In this document: positions 1,861 through 43,520 of the stretch, one piece after another | Position numbering within the stretch: the stretch's first letter is position 1 | Layout of the letters: each line of letters begins with the position of its first letter | From: Verrucomicrobiaceae bacterium E54 | GTDB lineage: Bacteria > Verrucomicrobiota > Verrucomicrobiia > Verrucomicrobiales > Akkermansiaceae | Assembly: GCA_022548915.1 (NCBI GenBank) | Contig: JAKZES010000010.1 | Coordinates: 62,001 to 126,000, forward strand | DNA length: 64,000 nucleotides | Direction of reading: 5' to 3' | The notes under the pieces: generated by a model | What the model was told of the DNA's origin: nothing | Databases searched by the model: none | The model's input: the letters and a program-made list of their open reading frames with translations, nothing else | Made by a program: the position numbers and the translations under genes

Positions 1861-4800
1861 ATGAAACCTACCCTGATTCTCGCCTTGGCCGGAGCGGTCG
1901 TGACCACCGTCCATGCGGCCGAGGTCCTCCACTACTGGGACATGGACACCGTCGATGGCGGGGGCGTTCCGCTCGATGTGGTCGGCGGCCTCGTCACCAC
2001 CGCCGGCGCCAATCTCGATCTCACCCACACCGCCTACGGCCCCGCCGGGGGTTCCGGGGGGAACTACCTCCGCACCGACATTGGTGTCTTTGGCGTCCCG
2101 CTGACGGCGGAGGTTCACGACGGCACGACCGCCACCGCACTGGTTTTCCCCGGCAGCTTTTCCTTCAGCTACTGGTCCTACGAGGACTCCACCGATGGGA
2201 GCGGCTCCGGTCCCCGCACCTTCGATTGCCTCAACGGCACCGACACGGGCCTGCAGTTGAGCACCACCACCTCCGGTGGCCTGAACTTCCGCATGGATGA
2301 CGACGCCGGCAACGAGGTGCTGAGCAAGGACGAGACCAATCCCGATCCGACGCAGGCGGATGACGCCTGGACTTTCGTGGTCGTCAACGTGGACCGAACC
2401 CTCAATCAGGCGGAGATCTTCTTCAACGGCAGCTCGCAGGCCACCTACGGTATTGCCGCCCTCACCGGAGTCATCTCACCCTCCCAGGATCTGGAGATCG
2501 GGGTCATCAATGGAGGTGACTTTACCAGCGACATCCAGACGGCGGGTCTCGACGATCTTGCTTTCTACGACGGCCTGCTCAGCGTCCAGGAGATCGCCGA
2601 CCTCTACGCCGGGACCATCACGCCCGCCGACCTGGACAACGGCACCACCGTGCCTCCTCCCGCCGCGCCCACCGGTCTCACGGCGGTTGCGGGCGACGGC
2701 ATGGTCGCCCTCGACTGGGACGACAACACCGAACCGGAACTCGCCGGCTACCGTGTTTACAGCCGAACCGGCGCGAGCACGTTCCAACTCGTGGCCACCC
2801 CGACGGTGAGCGAGTTCACGGACACCGGCCTGATCAACGGACAGACCTACACCTACTACGTCACGGCGATCAAGACCGGCAGCGCCCAGTCAGAATCCAG
2901 CAACGAGGTCGATGCCACGCCTGAAGGCGACAGTGTGCCCGGCCTGGCCAGCCCCACCGGTCTGACGGCGGTTGCCGGCAACGGCACGGTCACGCTCGAC
3001 TGGAATGACAACACCGAACCGAATCTGGCCGGATATCGCGTCTATCGTCGGACCGAAGCCAGCGAATTCCAGCTCGTGGGCACCCCGACTGAGAGCTCTT
3101 TCACCGACAACGGCCTGCACAACGGGCACCGCTACACCTACCACGTGACGGCCAGGAACACCGGCAGTGAGGAGTCGGCTCCCAGCAGTCAGGTGTCTGC
3201 CGCGCCCGAGACCACCGGGGACGATGCCCTCGCCAATCTGAGCGGCTCACAGTTCGAGGACTTCGCTGGGTTTCCCCATCTCGCATCGCTTCCCGCCGAC
3301 CTTGAAGTCGATGGCGACGGGGATGGAGATCCGGACAATATGGAATTTGTGTTCGGCTCCGACCAAGCCGATCCCGCCAGCCGCGGCTCCTCCACGATCG
3401 CCTTGGGACCCGGCAACGGCAGCCCGCCGGTGCTCGCCTACCACGAACGCATCAGTTCCCCGGGCGTCCACGCCGAGGCATCCTACTCGACCAACCTCGA
3501 GAACTGGTCGACCGGCTCCCTCACCGAACTCGGACGCACGATTCTGCCGGATGGAGCAACCGAGGAAGTGACCATCCGCCTCGACGACCCGATCCTGTTG
3601 AACGCGCCCCGGGTCTTCGTCCGGATCACGGTCACCGACGACCTCTACGTCCCGCGCTTCGCCATCGTGCCGGAAGCGACCACCCCCTCGACGGTGTCCA
3701 TGACCGCCGGTCAGGCGGATCTCGATCCGCGCACGGTGGAGTATTTCTTCGAAGCCGTCTCAGCGGGCGGCAACGATTCCGGCTGGCAGCGCAGCCGGCT
3801 CTACATCGATTCCGGCCTCGCCGCCGGCGGCACCTACGCGTACCGGGTCAAGATCCGCCGCGTCGACCCGGCCGACGGCACCCCGGTGCCCGGGAGCGAA
3901 ACGGAATTTTCGCGCATCGCATCGGCCAGCACCCCGTCTGCCGGAACCCGCCCCAACATCATCGTCTTCATGGCCGACGACCTCGGCTACGAGTGCTTCG
4001 ACATCTACGGCGACTCGGACCACCAGACGCCGCAGATTACGCAGATGGCGGCCGAGGGGATGAAGTTCACCAACTTCCATTCCCAGCCCCTGTGCACCCC
4101 GTCGCGGGTGCAGATCATGTCCGGCCAGTACAACCACCGCAACGGCACCACTTTCGGCGACTACGAGGCGGACAAGTGCTTCGGGACGTTTTTCAAGCAG
4201 GGCGGCTACGTCACCTGCGTGGCGGGCAAGTGGCAGCTCGACTATCGGACCAGCGGCGATCCCGCGACCAATCCGGCCCTGCCCCAGCGGGTGATCGACC
4301 TCGGCTTCGACGAGTTCCTGCTCTGGAACATCAGCGGCGGCAGCTCGTCCTACTACGGCAGCCGTTACTGGAGTCCGAAGCTTTACACCAACCCGGCCAC
4401 TCCCGGCGGCAACTTCACCGTCATCGACGGCACCAGCGAGCAGTACGGGCCCACGCTGGTCCGCGAGTTCATCAACGGCTTCATCACCAATGCCGCCGAC
4501 GCCTCCGAGCCCTTCTTCGTCTATTGCCCGCTCATCGACCCGCACGACCCCTTCGTCACGCCGCCCGGCTTCTCGGGATTGTCGACCAACAAGGCGAAGC
4601 ACGAGGCGATGGTCGAATACATGGATGAGAGTGTCGGTGCCACCCTCGACCTCATCCGGAACACCCCGGCTCTCGCGGACAACACTCTCGTGATTTTCAC
4701 CAGCGACAACGGAACCAACGCCGGGATCACCACCGTCTTCAACGGAGCGAACTACCAAGGGGGCAAGGCGGGGACCTTCGATCCCGGAACCCATGTTCCC

Positions 4801-10469: not shown

Positions 10470-10487
10470 TCGTTGACGCGTTTCCTG

Positions 10488-10604
10488 CCAGTGGCATGAC
10501 CGTCCTGGTCATGGGCGGCCGAGGCCCGGAGCGAGTGATCGATTTCCATTGGGGCAGGTATGGCGCGCCTGGCCCATTCATGACCGGGACGGTCATGCCA
10601 CTGG
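10488..10604. repeat. REPIN-like hairpin pair, copy 1
   Basis: Two 26-base arms face each other (10488-10513 and 10579-10604) with one mismatch. Each arm holds the near-palindrome CATGACCGTCCCGGTCATG (copy 1 left has CTGG in place of CCGG). The 117-base unit sits between proA and the menG methyltransferase. The same arm recurs as a pair at 29456-29556. A short open frame over this spot is produced by the repeat and is not a gene. Confidence 0.85.
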
Positions 10605-10677
10605 TAGGTGGGAGATGTCAGTTGGGTGGAGCTGTGTTCGAGGCTTGGCGAAATCCAAATCGGGGGTAACTGGAAGC

Positions 10678-20324: not shown

Positions 20325-22100
20325 TCAGGTCCTGACGAAGGCCTTGAGGGTGGCGCACTCGGTGCCGACCGCCTTGCCGTGCGGGCGGATCGTGTAGGAT
20401 CCTACGGCGGCGGGGACGATGAAGGTCTCGGCATAGTGAACCACAAACGGCGCGAATGCTCCGGTCGGGCTCTCGACGACGGCCTCGCGGCCCTCGATCA
20501 GGTTGAGCACGTTCACGCCGCCGCCGGTGTGGTGTTCGACGGTGCCGGTGAACCAGTGACGGCGGGTTTCGATGAACTCGAGTTCGTGGAGTCCGGTGCG
20601 TTCCTCGCGCCAGCCATCGCCGGAGGCGACCGGCTCGATGCGGTTGACCAGGTTCTCCTTCGCCCAGCTCTCGTCGCGCTCCCAGCGGATGTTCGCGATG
20701 CCGCGCTCGATGTTGATCGGGCGGGGGAGTCCGTCGAGGCCGAGGCGGCCCCAGTCCCACAGCTTGAAGGTGAAGATGTAGGGCGTGGCGCTGATCTCGA
20801 GGACCATGCTGTTGCGGCCGCTGCAGTGGCAGGTGCCCGCCGGGATTAGGAAATGGTCGTGCTTCTTCGCCGGGAAGCGGGCGACGAAGCGCTCGTCGTC
20901 GAAGGTCTTCTCCCCGCGCTGGGCGGTTCGCAGGTCGTCGATCATTTCCTCCGGGTCGACGCCCTCGCGCAGTCCGAGAAAGACCTCCGCACCCTCGTCG
21001 GCATCGAGGATGTAGTAGGACTCGTCCTGGGTGTAGTGCATCCCGAAGTGGCGTTGGATGTAGTCGGTCAGCGGGTGGACCTGGAACGACAGGTTGCCGC
21101 CGTCCATCGTGTCGAGGAAATCGAAGCGGATCGGGAACTCGGCACCAAAGCGCGAGAAGACCCTTTCGCCGAGCAACTCCCGCGGCTGGTGGAAGACGAC
21201 GTTGATCGACGGGAGTTCCATCACGGTCCCGTCGAAGTCGAGCAACAGGCTGTTTTCCTCGGGCACGCAGTCGAAGCACCAGGCGAAGTTCTCCGGTTCC
21301 GGGTCGAGGTCGCAGACCTTCCGCATCCACTGTCCGCCCCACGGGCCGGGATCGAAGAAGGGAACCACCCGGAAGGGTCGCCGTGCGGCCTCGAGCAGTC
21401 CTTCGCGAACGGCCTCACCCGAGGCCATGCGCGGGTCGCCCGGTTGGTGGGTATCGAGGACGAAGTCCCATCGATCCATCAGCTCGCGCTTGAGTTTGTC
21501 GCAGACCCGCCAGTCGGTGAAGAAGGCTCGCTTGTACTGCAGGCTCCATTTCAGCCCGCGGTTCTCGACGCCGAGGTTGGAGATCTCGTCGCGGCGCATC
21601 CGCAGCTGGGCCTCCCAGCGCGCGAGGTCGGCGTAGACGAGCAGGTCGCCGGGATGGATCAGGCTGGCACCGGGGCCGATGAGGATGACGAGGGCGACCT
21701 CGGAGTGCCCGATCCGCTCCTGCATCGAGGTGATCTTCTCGGGATCGAGGAAGTCCTGCATCCGCAGGCGGGTCAACCAGCCGAAGACCGGGTCATCGCC
21801 ACCGTTGAAGGGGGCGACGCGGCGGTCGATCTCTTCGCCATCGTGAAACGCCTCGTCGCTCTGCAGGAACAGCGCTTCGGGAAAGGCGCCGGAGAGCGCC
21901 CGGGTGATTTCGTCGATGAACACCCCGCTGTAGCACTCGAACGTGAGGACGGTGCGGCGAGCCTTGCGGGTGTCCATCGCCTCCTTGAGGCGGGTGGTCA
22001 CGGCCTCCCATCCGCGGAGGCAGCAGCCGGGAACTTCCACCTTCGGAAACTTGTCGTAGTTGGGGGTCACCGGCTGGCGTGGTTCCAAATCCATTCGCAT
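20325..22100 (-). CDS. class I mannose-6-phosphate isomerase-like protein with N-terminal extension
   Basis: Type I PMI interconverts mannose-6-phosphate and fructose-6-phosphate using zinc. The 591-residue protein is much longer than ManA (about 390). The C-terminal part has PMI features: LLGERVFSRFGAEFPIRFDF, the metal site LSFQVHPLTDYIQRHFG, QDESYYILDADEGAEVFLGL, KHDHFLIPAGTCHCSG and the end domain. The N-terminal ~230 residues (VLTFECYSGVFIDEITRAL ... VRVVPFFDPGPWGGQWM-like) resemble a nucleoside-kinase-type domain, but no intact P-loop is seen. The same long form is known in Bacteroidota and Verrucomicrobiota. It overlaps the ROK gene end by 34 bases and precedes the transporter. Isomerase activity is inferred from motif and operon. 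Confidence 0.85.
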   Translation of the reverse strand: MRMDLEPRQPVTPNYDKFPKVEVPGCCLRGWEAVTTRLKEAMDTRKARRTVLTFECYSGVFIDEITRALSGAFPEALFLQSDEAFHDGEEIDRRVAPFNGGDDPVFGWLTRLRMQDFLDPEKITSMQERIGHSEVALVILIGPGASLIHPGDLLVYADLARWEAQLRMRRDEISNLGVENRGLKWSLQYKRAFFTDWRVCDKLKRELMDRWDFVLDTHQPGDPRMASGEAVREGLLEAARRPFRVVPFFDPGPWGGQWMRKVCDLDPEPENFAWCFDCVPEENSLLLDFDGTVMELPSINVVFHQPRELLGERVFSRFGAEFPIRFDFLDTMDGGNLSFQVHPLTDYIQRHFGMHYTQDESYYILDADEGAEVFLGLREGVDPEEMIDDLRTAQRGEKTFDDERFVARFPAKKHDHFLIPAGTCHCSGRNSMVLEISATPYIFTFKLWDWGRLGLDGLPRPINIERGIANIRWERDESWAKENLVNRIEPVASGDGWREERTGLHELEFIETRRHWFTGTVEHHTGGGVNVLNLIEGREAVVESPTGAFAPFVVHYAETFIVPAAVGSYTIRPHGKAVGTECATLKAFVRT

Positions 22101-23005
22101 CCGATCAGTGCGGCGTGGTCGCCAAGGGTGCCGGCGACAATTTCCACGGGACCCCCGGGCTGGATCGCGTGGTCACGGACGAACCGCCGCACCGGCGGCA
22201 GGATGATTTCGGCCGCCGCCATGATGCCGCCGCCGATGACGACTCGCCCGGGGTCGAACGCCTGGATCAGGTTGAGGGTGAGCGCGCCCCAGGCTTCGAG
22301 GGCGTGGTCGCGGATCGTGCAGGCCAGCGGATCGCCCTGGGCGGCGTGCGAAAACAAGGCCTGATAGTCGACTGGGGACACGTTCGACAGAGAACTGGCG
22401 CCGAATTCCGGATGGGCGGCAACCCGCTCTGGCAGGGCCCAGGTGGCGACCTGTCCCTCGGTGCAGCCGGGAGCCACGCGGTCACTGCCCGGAGAGCCGA
22501 GATGAGTGATGGAGAGTCCTCCCAGGGTGCCCGCCATGCCGGTCCGGCCGCGGACCGGGTATCCGTTCTGGATCACGCCCGTGCCGATGCCGGTGCCGAG
22601 CGTGATCATGACCAGATCATCGGAGCCCTTGCCGGCACCCGCCTGCCACTCGCCGATGGCCGCCGCCCGGGCGTCGCCATCCAGCAGTAGCGGAAGCCCG
22701 AACCGCTCTTCCGCCCGTGAGCAGAAGTCCTCATCGGTCACGTCCTCGAACTTGCCGAAGGCCCGGGTCGCCCGTCGCAGACCGGGATCGATGATGAGTG
22801 GCAGTGCCCATACCATGGCGTCGATCGCTTGCCGACGGACCCCCGACGTCCGGCACAAGTCGGTGACGGCTTGATCGAGCGTCGGGAACCACTCGGCGCT
22901 CGGGAGATGGGCCATCGAGTCGACCACCGTTGAGGCGACGACACATCCTTCGTCAATCAAGCCCAGCTTGATCCGCGTTCCACCGAAATCTCCCCCGAGG
23001 ATCAC
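22067..23005 (-). CDS. ROK family sugar kinase
   Basis: The 312-residue protein likely phosphorylates a hexose, from context mannose, at C6. It has the phosphate-binding motif GGDFGGTRIKLGL at the N-terminus, the ROK core VMITLGTGIGTGVIQNGYPVRG, GMAGTLGG, and the adenosine motif RVVIGGGIMAAAEIILPPV. The zinc motif of canonical ROK proteins (CxCGxxGC) is not present: only one Cys remains in APGCTEGQVATWA. That form is seen in zinc-free ROK relatives, so loss of activity need not follow. It is the first gene of the four-gene mannoside operon. A 277-bp MITE-like element ends 43 bases before its start codon. Confidence 0.9.
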   Translation of the reverse strand: MILGGDFGGTRIKLGLIDEGCVVASTVVDSMAHLPSAEWFPTLDQAVTDLCRTSGVRRQAIDAMVWALPLIIDPGLRRATRAFGKFEDVTDEDFCSRAEERFGLPLLLDGDARAAAIGEWQAGAGKGSDDLVMITLGTGIGTGVIQNGYPVRGRTGMAGTLGGLSITHLGSPGSDRVAPGCTEGQVATWALPERVAAHPEFGASSLSNVSPVDYQALFSHAAQGDPLACTIRDHALEAWGALTLNLIQAFDPGRVVIGGGIMAAAEIILPPVRRFVRDHAIQPGGPVEIVAGTLGDHAALIGCEWIWNHASR

Positions 23006-23039
23006 CTCGCCTGAGTAGGGGGGCTGGTGGCTTGCTGCA

Positions 23040-23048
23040 ATCCGAATC
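23040..23048. repeat. 9-bp target-site duplication, left
   Basis: ATCCGAATC directly abuts the left end of the MITE-like element and is repeated exactly at 23326-23334 on the other side. Confidence 0.85.
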
Positions 23049-23325
23049 GGGTGTCACTGAAAGTGGTGGGCATGGCCGGGACTTGCCGGCCGCGAGGCGT
23101 CCCCCCTCTAGAGTGCGGCGATTCATCGCCGCTTTGGCGAAGCATTTCAATGCGAGCCGGGCCACCGGCGATGAATCGCCGCACTCCAGATTTTCCGGAG
23201 GCTCGCCATCCGGGGCGGAGTGAAGCCGGGGAGCAAGGGAGGGACACCGGGCGTGAAACGTCCGGCCGCGGACCGCTGCTTCGCGGTCACCCCAACCGCT
23301 CTGCCCACCACTTTCAGTGACACCC
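23049..23325. mobile_element. MITE-like non-autonomous element, complete copy A
   Basis: The 277-base unit has perfect 24-bp terminal inverted repeats (23049-23072 starting GGGTGTCACTGAAAG, and 23302-23325 ending CTTTCAGTGACACCC). It is flanked by an exact 9-bp duplication ATCCGAATC. Inside is a second perfect 21-bp inverted repeat (23111-23131 against 23166-23186, GAGTGCGGCGATTCATCGCCG type) with a 34-base loop. No frame in it encodes a transposase. The right 226 bases recur at 43254-43505. It lies in the intergenic region before the mannoside operon and the divergent glycosidase. Confidence 0.88.
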
Positions 23326-23334
23326 ATCCGAATC
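23326..23334. repeat. 9-bp target-site duplication, right
   Basis: Exact copy of ATCCGAATC at 23040-23048, adjacent to the right terminal inverted repeat. Confidence 0.85.
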
Positions 23335-23431
23335 CCCGCGTGAGTCGTCGAACCCATGCTGTTGCGGCGTTGCGCTATTCCGAGAAGAGCGTGTGGAAAG
23401 AGCGGGGGTCCCGGCCCCGTTGAATGTCCCG

Positions 23432-25828
23432 ATGATCTTCCGGTCCCGAGGCGTCATGGCATCGCTTCTCGTGCTCTGCTCCGGGGTGTCACCGGGTGCG
23501 ACGGTGGACCACGAGGAACGTCTGGTCGAACTGCGCGGGAGTCTTGAGCGGACGGCGGAGTTGATCGACGGGGCGGCGGGCTACGCTGCGGAGGCCGGAC
23601 GAATCGACCTGCAGGTCGCGCGATGGTTTGCGGATTACATCGAGTGGGAGCTGGAGAATCCCGCGCTGATGAAGCAGGCGCTCGTCGGCGACTGGATCTT
23701 CCACGGTGATGAACCGCCCGCTCCCGAGGTGGCGGCCCAACGTTACCGGGAACATCTCAAGCGGGAACTCGACGGGGCATTTGCACTGGTGGAGCAGGCC
23801 GCCGCGCGGTTGACGGCACAGCGTGATTGGCCTGTGACCTTCAGGCCGGACTGGGAGCGGATGCGCTTCGCCGACGGCTACTTCCGCATGGGCGATCGTG
23901 CCGTGTTTCCCGGTGGCTTCAACATGATCCGCAAGGAACTCGTCGACCTCTCGCTCCATCCAGAGCAGGCGCGGGAATCGCGTGCGAGGCTCGACCGCTT
24001 CCTCGACGAGATGCGTGAAATGGGCGTGGGGGTCATCGAACACGGGGTGTCGCTGCCCCAGTTCATCGGTCCGGATGGAGGCTTCCGGCAGGAGCTGCTG
24101 GACACCCATGTCGAGCAGATCCGGGGCTTCGCCGCGAAGGGATTCAAGATCAACGTGCTGTTCCACTGGGGAGGGGATGCGGAAGTTCTCGAGCGTCGCT
24201 GGCCGGGCATCACGAGCTTCCGGGGGAACGGCGTGGCGCTCGACATCGACCACCCCGGGACTCGTGAATTGATTCGGGAGATCGGTGGCAGGGTCCTTCC
24301 GGTACTCGGCGGGCTCGATGCCGTCGTGGCCTGGGACATGGCGAATGAACCCTTCTTCAGTATGGAGGAGTGGAGCCCCCATGGCGTCGGTAAATACCGG
24401 GAATGGCTGCGCGAGCGGCACGGGACGATCGAGCGGTTGAACGAACGGTGGCGAAGCGGATTCGGAACTTTTGAAGAAATTCCCCCGCCGAAGACCAGTC
24501 AGCCGGAGTCATGCCCGGCCGGCGAATGGTTCGACCGGGTGAGTTTTCACAACCACCGCGTGAGTTCGTTCTTCGGCTTTTTCAGCGGGGTGATTCGCGA
24601 ACACGTGCCGGGCGCGGCGGTTCATTTGAAGTCGCAGGACAATTCCAGCCTCGGACCGATGCCAGACGCCGTCGGCCACGGGATCGATCGGGAGGCGTTG
24701 ACGCCTTTTTGTCAGATCCAGGGGCTCGATACGCGTCCGCTGCCGGTGACCGAACCCCGGATGGCGGCGTCGGACTACGACGAGGAACCTTACGCTTTTC
24801 ACTGGCTCGGGCAGTCCTTCACCTACGACTACCTGACCTCGCTGCCGCCCTCGCGCCCGATCGTCGACTTCGAGTATCACGCCTTCTCGATCAACGCGAT
24901 CCGGATCCCGGACCTGCCGGTCGATCACGGACGGGCAACCCTGTGGCTGGCGCACCTTCACGGGCTGATCGGAAACATGGCGTGGTATTGGCACCGCCGG
25001 TGGGGACCAGACCCGTTTCCGAAAAAGTATTTTCACTGGTGGTTCCGCAGCAGTCTCTCCACCCAGCCTTTGGCAGCGGCGGAGTATTTCCACACGATGC
25101 TCGAATTGAATGCCTTCGGTCCCGAGGTCGAACGCCTCGCGGGTGTGGAGGAACGCCCGGTCCGGTTGCTGGTTTCCAAATCATCCTATATCCACGACCA
25201 GGCGCACATCGACGCCCTGCACCGGGTGTATGAAGGCAGTTGTTTCCACGGTCTGCGGATCGGTTTCGTGACCGAGGACAAGCTGGAGGCCGATGGCGTG
25301 CCGGAGGACTGCCGGGTGCTCATCATCCCGAACGTGCGCCATCTTTCCGGAGAGGCGTTGGCGGCCCTGAGAAGAGCGAAGGAGGCGGGGCATCGCCTTT
25401 TGAATTACGGAGACAGGACTCCGTTGCTGGATTCCTACGGTTTTCCTCATCCGGTTGAGGCGACGGATTTTCTGAGCACGGAGGCGTCGGTGGAGAAGGG
25501 CTCGGCGGAGGACGTCTCCCGAAGGCTGGGGCGGGAGCTGGAGCACGTATTGAGCGGGCGGCCCCTGCGGGTGCAGCGGACGGATCTTCCGGGAGCTTTC
25601 GGGGTGATGCACCGCTTCGTCCGGGAGGATGACGGCCTGCTGATCCTGCTGGTCAACGTCCTCGATCAGTCCGTCACGGTCCGCCTCGAAGCCGACGGGA
25701 GTTTTCATGATCGCGGATCCGATGTCCTCAATGGCGAAGAGATCGGCTGCGACGGTATCAACCTGCCGGTCCGGAGCGTGCGGTTGATCCGCTTGCCGGT
25801 TCGGAGTTTTGATCCCCCGGTCCGGTGA
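23432..25828 (+). CDS. secreted clan GH-A glycoside hydrolase (beta-galactosidase/GH42-like)
   Basis: The 798-residue protein begins with a leader (MIFRSRGVMASLLVLCSGVS). After an N-terminal helical stretch it shows a TIM-barrel glycosidase: HGVSLPQFIGPDG, FKINVLFHWGG, and VVAWDMANEPFFSME with the acid/base Glu306 in the Asn-Glu-Pro motif. VDFEYHAF has Glu481 placed as nucleophile. A trimerisation-like domain (VRLLVSKSSYIHDQAH ... CRVLIIPNVRHLSGEALAAL) and a small beta domain follow, an order typical of GH42. The substrate is not determined. It is divergent from the mannoside operon and may belong to the same regulon. ATG 23432 or 23456 could be the start. Confidence 0.8.
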   Translation: MIFRSRGVMASLLVLCSGVSPGATVDHEERLVELRGSLERTAELIDGAAGYAAEAGRIDLQVARWFADYIEWELENPALMKQALVGDWIFHGDEPPAPEVAAQRYREHLKRELDGAFALVEQAAARLTAQRDWPVTFRPDWERMRFADGYFRMGDRAVFPGGFNMIRKELVDLSLHPEQARESRARLDRFLDEMREMGVGVIEHGVSLPQFIGPDGGFRQELLDTHVEQIRGFAAKGFKINVLFHWGGDAEVLERRWPGITSFRGNGVALDIDHPGTRELIREIGGRVLPVLGGLDAVVAWDMANEPFFSMEEWSPHGVGKYREWLRERHGTIERLNERWRSGFGTFEEIPPPKTSQPESCPAGEWFDRVSFHNHRVSSFFGFFSGVIREHVPGAAVHLKSQDNSSLGPMPDAVGHGIDREALTPFCQIQGLDTRPLPVTEPRMAASDYDEEPYAFHWLGQSFTYDYLTSLPPSRPIVDFEYHAFSINAIRIPDLPVDHGRATLWLAHLHGLIGNMAWYWHRRWGPDPFPKKYFHWWFRSSLSTQPLAAAEYFHTMLELNAFGPEVERLAGVEERPVRLLVSKSSYIHDQAHIDALHRVYEGSCFHGLRIGFVTEDKLEADGVPEDCRVLIIPNVRHLSGEALAALRRAKEAGHRLLNYGDRTPLLDSYGFPHPVEATDFLSTEASVEKGSAEDVSRRLGRELEHVLSGRPLRVQRTDLPGAFGVMHRFVREDDGLLILLVNVLDQSVTVRLEADGSFHDRGSDVLNGEEIGCDGINLPVRSVRLIRLPVRSFDPPVR

Positions 25829-29265: not shown

Positions 29266-30119
29266 GCCCGCTTCCCGAACGCCGAAAGACCGCCGAGGAA
29301 CTCGCCAAGCTGCGGGAGTCGCTCGGGATTTCGGCCGACGGCCCGCCGCCCGATGCGCCAGGGGTGAGGAGGGAGGAGCCGGCACCCGGTTCGGATGAGG
29401 TGGATGAACTCAAGGCGGCGGTATTTGAGCAGCCGGATCCGGCGAGGGATGCTTCGTGGCATGACCGTCCCGGTCATGGATCAGAGGAGTTGGAAGTGAG
29501 TGGAGAGGCAAGGGCGTTGCCGGACGAACCGCCCATGACCGGGACGGTCATGCCACAAGCGGGTGAAGCGTCGCATTTGGAGGTCAAGGAGGATGAATCG
29601 CCCGTGACCGGAACCCCGCCTCCGCACTCTCTCCGGAAGTCCGCAAGTCTGGTGGTCGATCAGCCGAAGCCGGTCCGGCACCGGCCGGATGGATCGCTGC
29701 CGGCGCGGCGGCACACCGATGAGGAGCTGATGCGGCTGCGACGGATGGACGCGGGGCCGGCGGTCTCTCCGGTCGAGGCCCTGGCCCGCCGGACCGTCTC
29801 GGTGCCGGTGATGATCCTGTTCTACCTCCTCGCGCTTGCGGCGGTGGCGCTGTTGATCATGGAGAGCCTGTGGTTCTCGAAGGCGCAGCCTTTCGACCTG
29901 CCCTTCGAGTGGCTCGGCCAGGCGGTTCAGGCGGACTGGTACGGAACCGCCATCATGAGCGCGATCGGCGGGATCAGCGCCGGGGTGCTGCTGATCGCCG
30001 GCTGGGTGGCGTGGCGTCGACCGCTGTCGCGGCATCACGCCGGCTTCATGACCATCATCGCGGTGCTTGTCCTTGTCTTCGGAACCCTCTATTTCTTCCC
30101 CGAGCTCCATGGCGCGTAA
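29262..30119 (+). CDS. membrane protein of unknown function inside the pyr operon, carrying a REPIN
   Basis: The 285-residue protein is not recognised. The first ~150 residues are hydrophilic, low-complexity and rich in Pro, Glu and Arg (KTAEELAKLRESLGISADG, then a similar HTDEELMRLRRMDAG at about 148-162). Three hydrophobic segments follow: MILFYLLALAAVALLIMESL, TAIMSAIGGISAGVLLIAGW and MTIIAVLVLVFGTLYFF. A REPIN-like repeat (29456-29556) is translated in frame as HDRPGH ... MTGTVMP without breaking the gene. The start overlaps pyrR (ATGA) and the end overlaps pyrB by eleven bases, so it is cotranslated with both. Confidence 0.8.
   Translation: MSPLPERRKTAEELAKLRESLGISADGPPPDAPGVRREEPAPGSDEVDELKAAVFEQPDPARDASWHDRPGHGSEELEVSGEARALPDEPPMTGTVMPQAGEASHLEVKEDESPVTGTPPPHSLRKSASLVVDQPKPVRHRPDGSLPARRHTDEELMRLRRMDAGPAVSPVEALARRTVSVPVMILFYLLALAAVALLIMESLWFSKAQPFDLPFEWLGQAVQADWYGTAIMSAIGGISAGVLLIAGWVAWRRPLSRHHAGFMTIIAVLVLVFGTLYFFPELHGA
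29456..29556. repeat. REPIN-like hairpin pair, copy 2 (inside a gene)
   Basis: Two perfect 24-base inverted arms (29456-29479 and 29533-29556), both with the CATGACCGTCCCGGTCATG core, are 53 bases apart. The core matches the pair at 10488-10604. The 101-base unit is not a multiple of three, yet the host gene stays open through it. It lies in the low-complexity N-terminal part of the membrane protein gene. Confidence 0.87.
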
Positions 30120-43106: not shown

Positions 43107-43520
43107 CAAACCTCGGCCCTTTCGTCGTGGACGATCGCCACGCTGAAGCCGGGGGCGATCGACCGGACCACCTCCGCGAGTTCCTCCGCACCGGCTCCGG
43201 GCCAGTGGAATTCGGTCCGGGTCACGTCCGGGGCCGACGCCGGTCGGCAGGCATCCCCCCCTCTAGAGTGCGGCGATTCATCGCCGCTTTGGCGAAGCAT
43301 TTCAATGCGAGCCGGGCCACCGGCGATGAATCGCCTCCATCAAAGCGGCGATGAATCGCCGCAGTCTAGATTTCCCGGCGGCTCCTCATCCGGGGCGGAG
43401 TGAAGCCAGGGAGCAAGGGAGGAACACCGGGCCTGAAACGCCCGGCCGCGGACCGCTGCATGGCGGTCACCCCAACCGCTCTGCCCACCACTCTCAGTGA
43501 CACCCGGGCGAAAGGCGGGC
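43107..43520. other. gene-free stretch with degraded MITE copy
   Basis: No credible gene is present. Bases 43107-43253 have no clear content, though a minus-strand frame over 43110-43250 reads like ordinary protein (TEFHWPGAGAEELAEVVRS) and could be a remnant. The rest is MITE copy B. The convergent neighbours are ccsA and the small feo-associated gene. Confidence 0.5.
43254..43505. mobile_element. MITE-like element, copy B, truncated and altered
   Basis: These 252 bases match the right 226 bases of copy A (23100-23325) with scattered substitutions. The right terminal inverted repeat is at 43482-43505 with one change (CTCTCAGTGACACCC). The left ~50 bases, including the left terminal repeat, are replaced. 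About 26 extra bases lie in the inner hairpin, including a duplicate of AAGCGGCGATGAATCGCCGC. No target duplication can be seen. It follows ccsA. Confidence 0.85.

Follow-up and report, generated by a model that had tools for sequence, protein, structure and literature searches.

A MITE with REP-like palindromes in its interior in Verrucomicrobiaceae bacterium E54, probably mobilised by an ISKra4-family transposase

The element and its setting

The window, a stretch of 64,000 nucleotides from Verrucomicrobiaceae bacterium E54 (contig JAKZES010000010.1, positions 62,001 to 126,000), contains a short repeat-bounded unit between two divergent genes, which encode a ROK family protein and a beta-galactosidase-like (GH42) protein. 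The features are listed below in positions of the window.

22067..23005, minus strand: gene for the ROK family protein, context only (PF00480, E value 1.1e-40; start at 23005)
23040..23048, plus strand: left copy of the target site duplication (TSD), 9 bp, atccgaatc, matching the right copy at 9/9 positions
23049..23325, plus strand: whole MITE, 277 bp; its boundaries recur in other copies
23049..23072, plus strand: left terminal inverted repeat (TIR), 24 bp, agreeing at 21/24 positions with the left end of the ISKra4-like IS from genome G227
23107..23131, plus strand: left half of the inner REP-like palindrome pair; the palindrome also occurs outside MITE copies
23166..23190, minus strand: right half of the inner REP-like palindrome pair
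23302..23325, minus strand: right TIR, 24 bp; the likeness to the G227 IS reaches 31 bases inwards (23295-23325)
23326..23334, plus strand: right copy of the TSD, 9 bp, atccgaatc
23393..25828, plus strand: beta-galactosidase-like (GH42) gene, context only (PF02449, E value 5.6e-13; mechanical start at 23393, start codon uncertain)
43239..43505, plus strand: another copy within the window, lacking its left end, 84% identical to positions 37-277 of the query (G000:C11:105239-105505)

The two TIRs are complementary at 24/24 positions, and both the 277-base unit with perfect ends and the exact flanking 9-bp duplication, as described in an earlier note on this DNA, were recovered base for base. Under a uniform base model, about 2e-7 perfect 24-bp inverted pairs no more than 1 kb apart would be expected by chance in 64 kb, a figure into which the 9-bp duplication does not yet enter. 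The inner inverted repeat matches at 24/25 positions. It contains the perfect 21-bp core that had been noted before. This repeat is best regarded as a member of a second repeat family in the interior of the element, rather than as a part of its ends. Folded as single-stranded DNA, the MITE is much more stable than shuffled sequences (z -9.0; 0/200 as good), as is implied by its nested inverted repeats. By eye, the longest listed ORF within its span has fewer than 100 aa, and none was retained as a gene. Short, bounded by perfect 24-bp TIRs and without a transposase gene, the 277-bp unit is a genuine MITE.

A simple E. coli-type scan of positions 22900-23500 revealed no promoter-like sites, and terminator-like sites were likewise absent from this interval. 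From its position, the MITE may possibly influence expression of the ROK and GH42 genes. Some ISKra4 members insert upstream of sigma-A promoters, according to the part of PMC3942029 used here. Elsewhere in the window, positions 2641-3209 hold a tandem direct repeat of 284 bp in two copies with 74% identity.

Copies in the host genome

The host assembly comprises 5.9 Mb in 255 contigs and is 97.5% complete. With up to three mismatches to the 24-mer, it holds 21 TIR-like ends, the two of the window MITE included, nine of which are identical to the window TIR (window again included); the reversed 24-mer, used as a control at the same threshold, had no match in the host genome. Seven copies have both ends and measure 161, 239, 277, 309, 366, 403, and 404 bp. 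One-ended or contig-cut copies lie on contigs C11 (at 105 kb), C189, C190, C173, C196, C222 (at 82 kb), C226, C233, and C240. The copies found elsewhere terminate at the same bases as the window MITE.

In the second copy within the window, the right TIR (43482-43505) has one mismatch, and a stretch of 80 bases (43256-43335) is identical to the window MITE at 80/80 positions. The best full-length relative in the host, on C222, shares 82% identity. Over its left 132 bases the window MITE agrees with the C196 copy at 94%, and the host genome yielded no full-length sibling that is nearly identical. Thus, the copies look like mosaics, and the recent movement proposed in the earlier note is not borne out by these identities. 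The gene context of 12 host copies, evaluated by longest-ORF rules, was uninformative, since in this GC-rich DNA spurious ORFs traverse the elements, including the window copy.

The inner palindromes

With up to two mismatches, the inner palindrome (near CTAGACTGCGGCGATTCATCGCCGC) has 41 matches in the host, of which 26 fall within MITE copies and 15 lie elsewhere; a C251 palindrome with two overlapping matches contributes both to the count. It occurs mostly as inverted pairs and also stands alone. Within this family, paired changes keep the stem intact in the variants CGGCGATTCATCGCCG, CGGTGATTCATCACCG, and CGGCGCTTCAGCGCCG. The C189 copy has its inner block in reverse orientation with respect to the ends. 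In the copy at 82 kb of C222 another palindromic block sits at CTAG, and the copy at C11:45992, which shares only its ends with the window copy, encloses a quite different palindrome. The results from these three copies indicate that the ends and the inner repeat behave as separate units.

Inverted pairs and compensating stem changes are also features of REP/REPIN/BIME sequences and RAYT TIRtrons, as described in the available parts of PMC3733652 and PMC3116915. The present palindromes differ from REP/REPIN/BIME in that no RAYT gene was found beside them at the 30 Y1_Tnp loci scanned and in the tag at the hairpin foot, which is CTAG in most copies and not the GTAG of REP and REPIN; for the latter reason we term them REP-like only. 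The bacterial MITEs RUP, NEMIS, and Nezha, in the partial account drawn on here (PMC3733652), resemble the window MITE in being non-coding, 70-300 bp long, bounded by 15-30-bp TIRs and present in many copies. The window MITE differs from them in carrying a second repeat family as an inverted pair in its interior, and some of its related copies are longer. Two further palindromic repeat pairs in the window, at 10475-10608 and 29456-29572, are of the CATGACCGGGACGGTCATG type and mutually similar.

Target site duplications across copies

The test set for duplications consisted of 12 two-ended copies, namely the seven from the host, four from the relatives G254 and G297, and one from an Akkermansia muciniphila MAG. 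The numbers of matching positions between the 9-bp flanks were 9, 9, 8, 6, 2, 7, and 2 in the host copies, 9, 9, 0, and 2 in those from G297 and G254, and 8 in the Akkermansia muciniphila MAG copy; hence 8-9 positions agree in six copies, 6-7 in two and 0-2 in four. As a null, the left flank of one copy was paired with the right flank of another, and the 132 mismatched pairs averaged 2.3 matches, with 5 as the maximum. Judged against this maximum, a 9-bp staggered insertion has good support in 6/12 two-ended copies, and it is likely in two more. The remaining 4/12 have no duplication at the expected offset; among them, the C111 copy shows 8/9 matches after a shift of two bases, and the right end of the C219 copy is changed.

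That the unit is a chance or structural palindrome with strong hairpin potential, and no mobile element, has a negligible probability, as it is contradicted by the presence of several copies whose ends coincide and by their target duplications.

An ISKra4-like partner

Transposases were sought in the host and in chosen relatives with the profiles PF01609, PF00872, and PF01610, and then with NF033572 (transpos_ISKra4), the NCBIfam model for ISKra4. Among 288 genomes of the order, the ISKra4 model has matches in 30, four of them above the cut-off. In G227, from another family of the order, the match (C426:3108-4325) immediately follows a TIR-like end at position 2888 that had been found independently by the TIR search. 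Together they delimit an ISKra4-like IS of 1,495 bp (G227:C426:2888-4382) with the ends GGGTGTGATTAAAAGTGGTGGGC and GGGTTTGATTTAAAGTGGTGGTC, which agree with each other at 19/22 positions. Its 461-aa ORF has transpos_ISKra4 as its best NCBIfam match (E value 1.2e-45; positions 16-420 of 422), with a score of 156 bits that is below the curated cut-off of 205, the family being nonetheless by far the best and the match near full length.

The results from BLASTN indicate that the right end of the MITE shares 27/31 bases (E value 6e-7) with the left end of this IS, the left end of the MITE shares 21/24 bases (E value 3e-4) with the IS, and the C222 copy of the MITE 27/31 (E value 7e-7). The likeness stops at 31 bases, and the interiors show no convincing match. 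Measured against a 23-base TIR of the MITE, the two ends of the IS agree at 20/23 and 18/23 positions. It is the single example of an autonomous element with matching ends, with none in the host, and it stops exactly at the contig end, so that its own duplication is out of sight. In the fragmented host genome, the profile search revealed no ISKra4 transposase; the sole match (C188, E value 1.4e-6) is within an IS256-family gene.

For a search for TIRs and duplications, 20 ISKra4 regions of the order were fetched. This search demanded GGG at the ends, and therefore only the letters after GGG count as evidence. TIR pairs with an 8- or 9-bp duplication were present in 3/20 regions: L354 (TIR 20/22, duplication 9/9), L357 (16/22, 9/9), and L362 (22/22, 8/8). 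Two regions, L359 and L361, have TIRs of 22/22 and 18/22 and no duplication, L360 (22/22) and L352 (19/22) end at contig ends, and nothing convincing was seen in the remaining ones. Apart from G227, the TIRs of these regions agree with that of the MITE at 8-13/23 bases. In the other ISKra4 regions scanned, the MITE TIR has within five mismatches either no match or one at chance level, the one being a small element in G153. A broken ISKra4-like gene (34.8% identity) on the plasmid of Opitutaceae TAV5 (CP007054.1) is accompanied by a possible left end, GGGTGTAATCGGAAGTGATGGAG, with 16/23 agreement, and its right end was not found; this locus was not used as support.

Mutator-like prokaryotic elements have inverted repeats of 18-39 bp with a conserved terminal C and duplications of 8 or 9 bp, in the part of PMC3942029 consulted, and the 24-bp TIR and 9-bp duplication of the MITE are inside these ISKra4-type ranges. 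In TIR length, near-perfect complementarity of the ends and 9-bp duplication the MITE resembles the ISKra4 family (p-MULT 4, Mutator superfamily; the same part of PMC3942029), and its ends are nearly identical to those of one ISKra4-like IS from the same order, although it has no transposase gene and an interior unrelated to the G227 IS. Based on one IS with matching ends and on the agreeing duplication length, we consider it probable that the unit is a non-autonomous MITE on which a transposase of the ISKra4 family (Mutator-superfamily DDE) acted in trans. The transposase, unseen in the window, that the earlier note had postulated is supported by the common ends, by the six copies whose flanks agree at 8-9 positions, and by this IS.

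Other possible movers

The MITE might instead belong to another DDE family with 8-9-bp duplications, such as IS256, IS4/IS50, ISL3 or one beyond those searched, for example IS1, IS903, ISAs1, IS66 or IS1595, which we regard as improbable. The host does encode one IS256 transposase (C188), one of ISL3 (C44) and a weak IS4-type match with IS50-like ends (C66). At all three host loci, however, every end differs from the 23-base TIR at 8 or more positions; the ends of the G227 IS are far closer to it. The host transposases detected with PF01609 (one, weak), PF00872 (one), and PF01610 (one) were accordingly rejected as partners, their loci bearing other ends; ISL3, tried for a likeness of its ends, was among those rejected. 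The IS4-type gene of the host lies at G000:C66 (L280:1022-2780, approximately), and its IS50-like ends are CTGATCTTTACACACATCTC and CTGATCTTTATACACATCTC.

Movement by a RAYT (HUH tyrosine) transposase was considered because of the REP-like palindromes in the interior and of a RAYT gene beside one end in G254; it would resemble TIRtrons, i.e., RAYT genes between long TIRs, for which the part of PMC3733652 seen does not mention duplications. In G254 the L208 copy consists of a TIR end followed by palindromes and then by a Y1_Tnp gene (L208:1846-2295; PF01797, E value 2e-18) 140 bases inside the TIR end. The unit, whose right TIR was not found, lies between the copies of a near-repeat of about 24 bases. 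The two-ended copy L198 retains the start and end of this RAYT gene, with its middle deleted, and several Y1 transposase genes are present in the host. HUH enzymes of the IS200/IS605 kind are not known to produce a target duplication, whereas 9-bp duplications are observed here. The inner REP, with up to two mismatches and within a reach of about 1.5 kb, was found at 0/30 Y1_Tnp loci (30 of 60 matches had loci), the TIR occurs only at L208's own locus, and the RAYT flanks in the host contain no matching palindrome. The copy at C11:45992, which resembles the window copy at its ends only, also speaks against this enzyme, and we judge its involvement to be highly improbable.

A proposed course of events

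Under mobilisation by an ISKra4-family transposase, the enzyme would bind the 24-bp TIRs, excise or copy the unit and join it to a target cut with a 9-bp stagger, leaving atccgaatc on both sides. Circular intermediates are known for families related to ISKra4 (in the part of PMC3942029 used). The transposase may later have been lost from the host, or may be encoded in a part absent from the assembly. The REP-like palindrome pair would have been trapped between the MITE ends and then multiplied along with them. It is conceivable, though we hold it doubtful, that ISKra4-type ends act as a vehicle by which REP-like pairs, and the RAYT gene of one relative, owe their spread mainly to transport within DDE-type MITEs rather than to an HUH enzyme of their own.

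We found no paper in the open-access literature searched on MITEs with target site duplication in Verrucomicrobi- taxa, nor on ISKra4 in Verrucomicrob- taxa. A MITE family of a little-studied bacterial order hereby gains a probable enzyme, which makes its mobilisation testable, and a route is suggested by which REP-type palindromes may spread without a transposase of their own, when caught within an element to which they are unrelated. Apart from these two points, the element is an ordinary, well-formed MITE.

Relatives carrying the ends

The full element has matches in 4/57 relatives, the host included. A 23-mer of the TIR, with up to three mismatches, is present in 19/288 genomes of the order, several of which are probably chance matches; the reversed 23-mer gave a single match over all 288 genomes. 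In eight of them (G048, G051, G082, G110, G134, G145, G155, and G185) the matches have one common sequence context in both orientations and look like one conserved gene, and these genomes were excluded from every family count. G254 and G297 have 20 and 47 such TIR ends, respectively. A search for the terminal repeat in related genomes, as the earlier note had advised, thus yielded two-ended copies as well as an IS with nearly the same ends (G227). Some related copies are longer than the window MITE, up to 1,139 bp, and in relatives the MITE ends are also found with other palindromes and in one case with a RAYT gene.

At seven places in G297, two outward-facing TIRs enclose a spacer of about 150 bp (C33:39649-39848, C45:32520-32719, C124:10476-10675, C129:20580-20779, C134:5991-6190, C139:16119-16318, and C15:20346-20553); the arrangement is also present, in a changed form, in G254 (C33:241-532). 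Where sequenced, the inner flanks on both sides are ggaatcaga, as would result from joint copying of two elements with the spacer. Genes near single TIR ends in G254 and G297 (L207:754-1423, L209:1072-2064, L192:4993-5985, and L197:2737-3150) include those for an HTH antitoxin-like protein with a weak HigB-like partner, a Fic protein with a MerR domain, and a weak PIN-domain protein. The small G153 element (G153:C418:7610-7703; L368:1611-1704), from another family of the order, is 94 bp long, has ends that resemble the MITE TIR at 20/23 and 16/23 positions and flanks that are alike at about 7/9 (by eye), and appears to be a very small relative.
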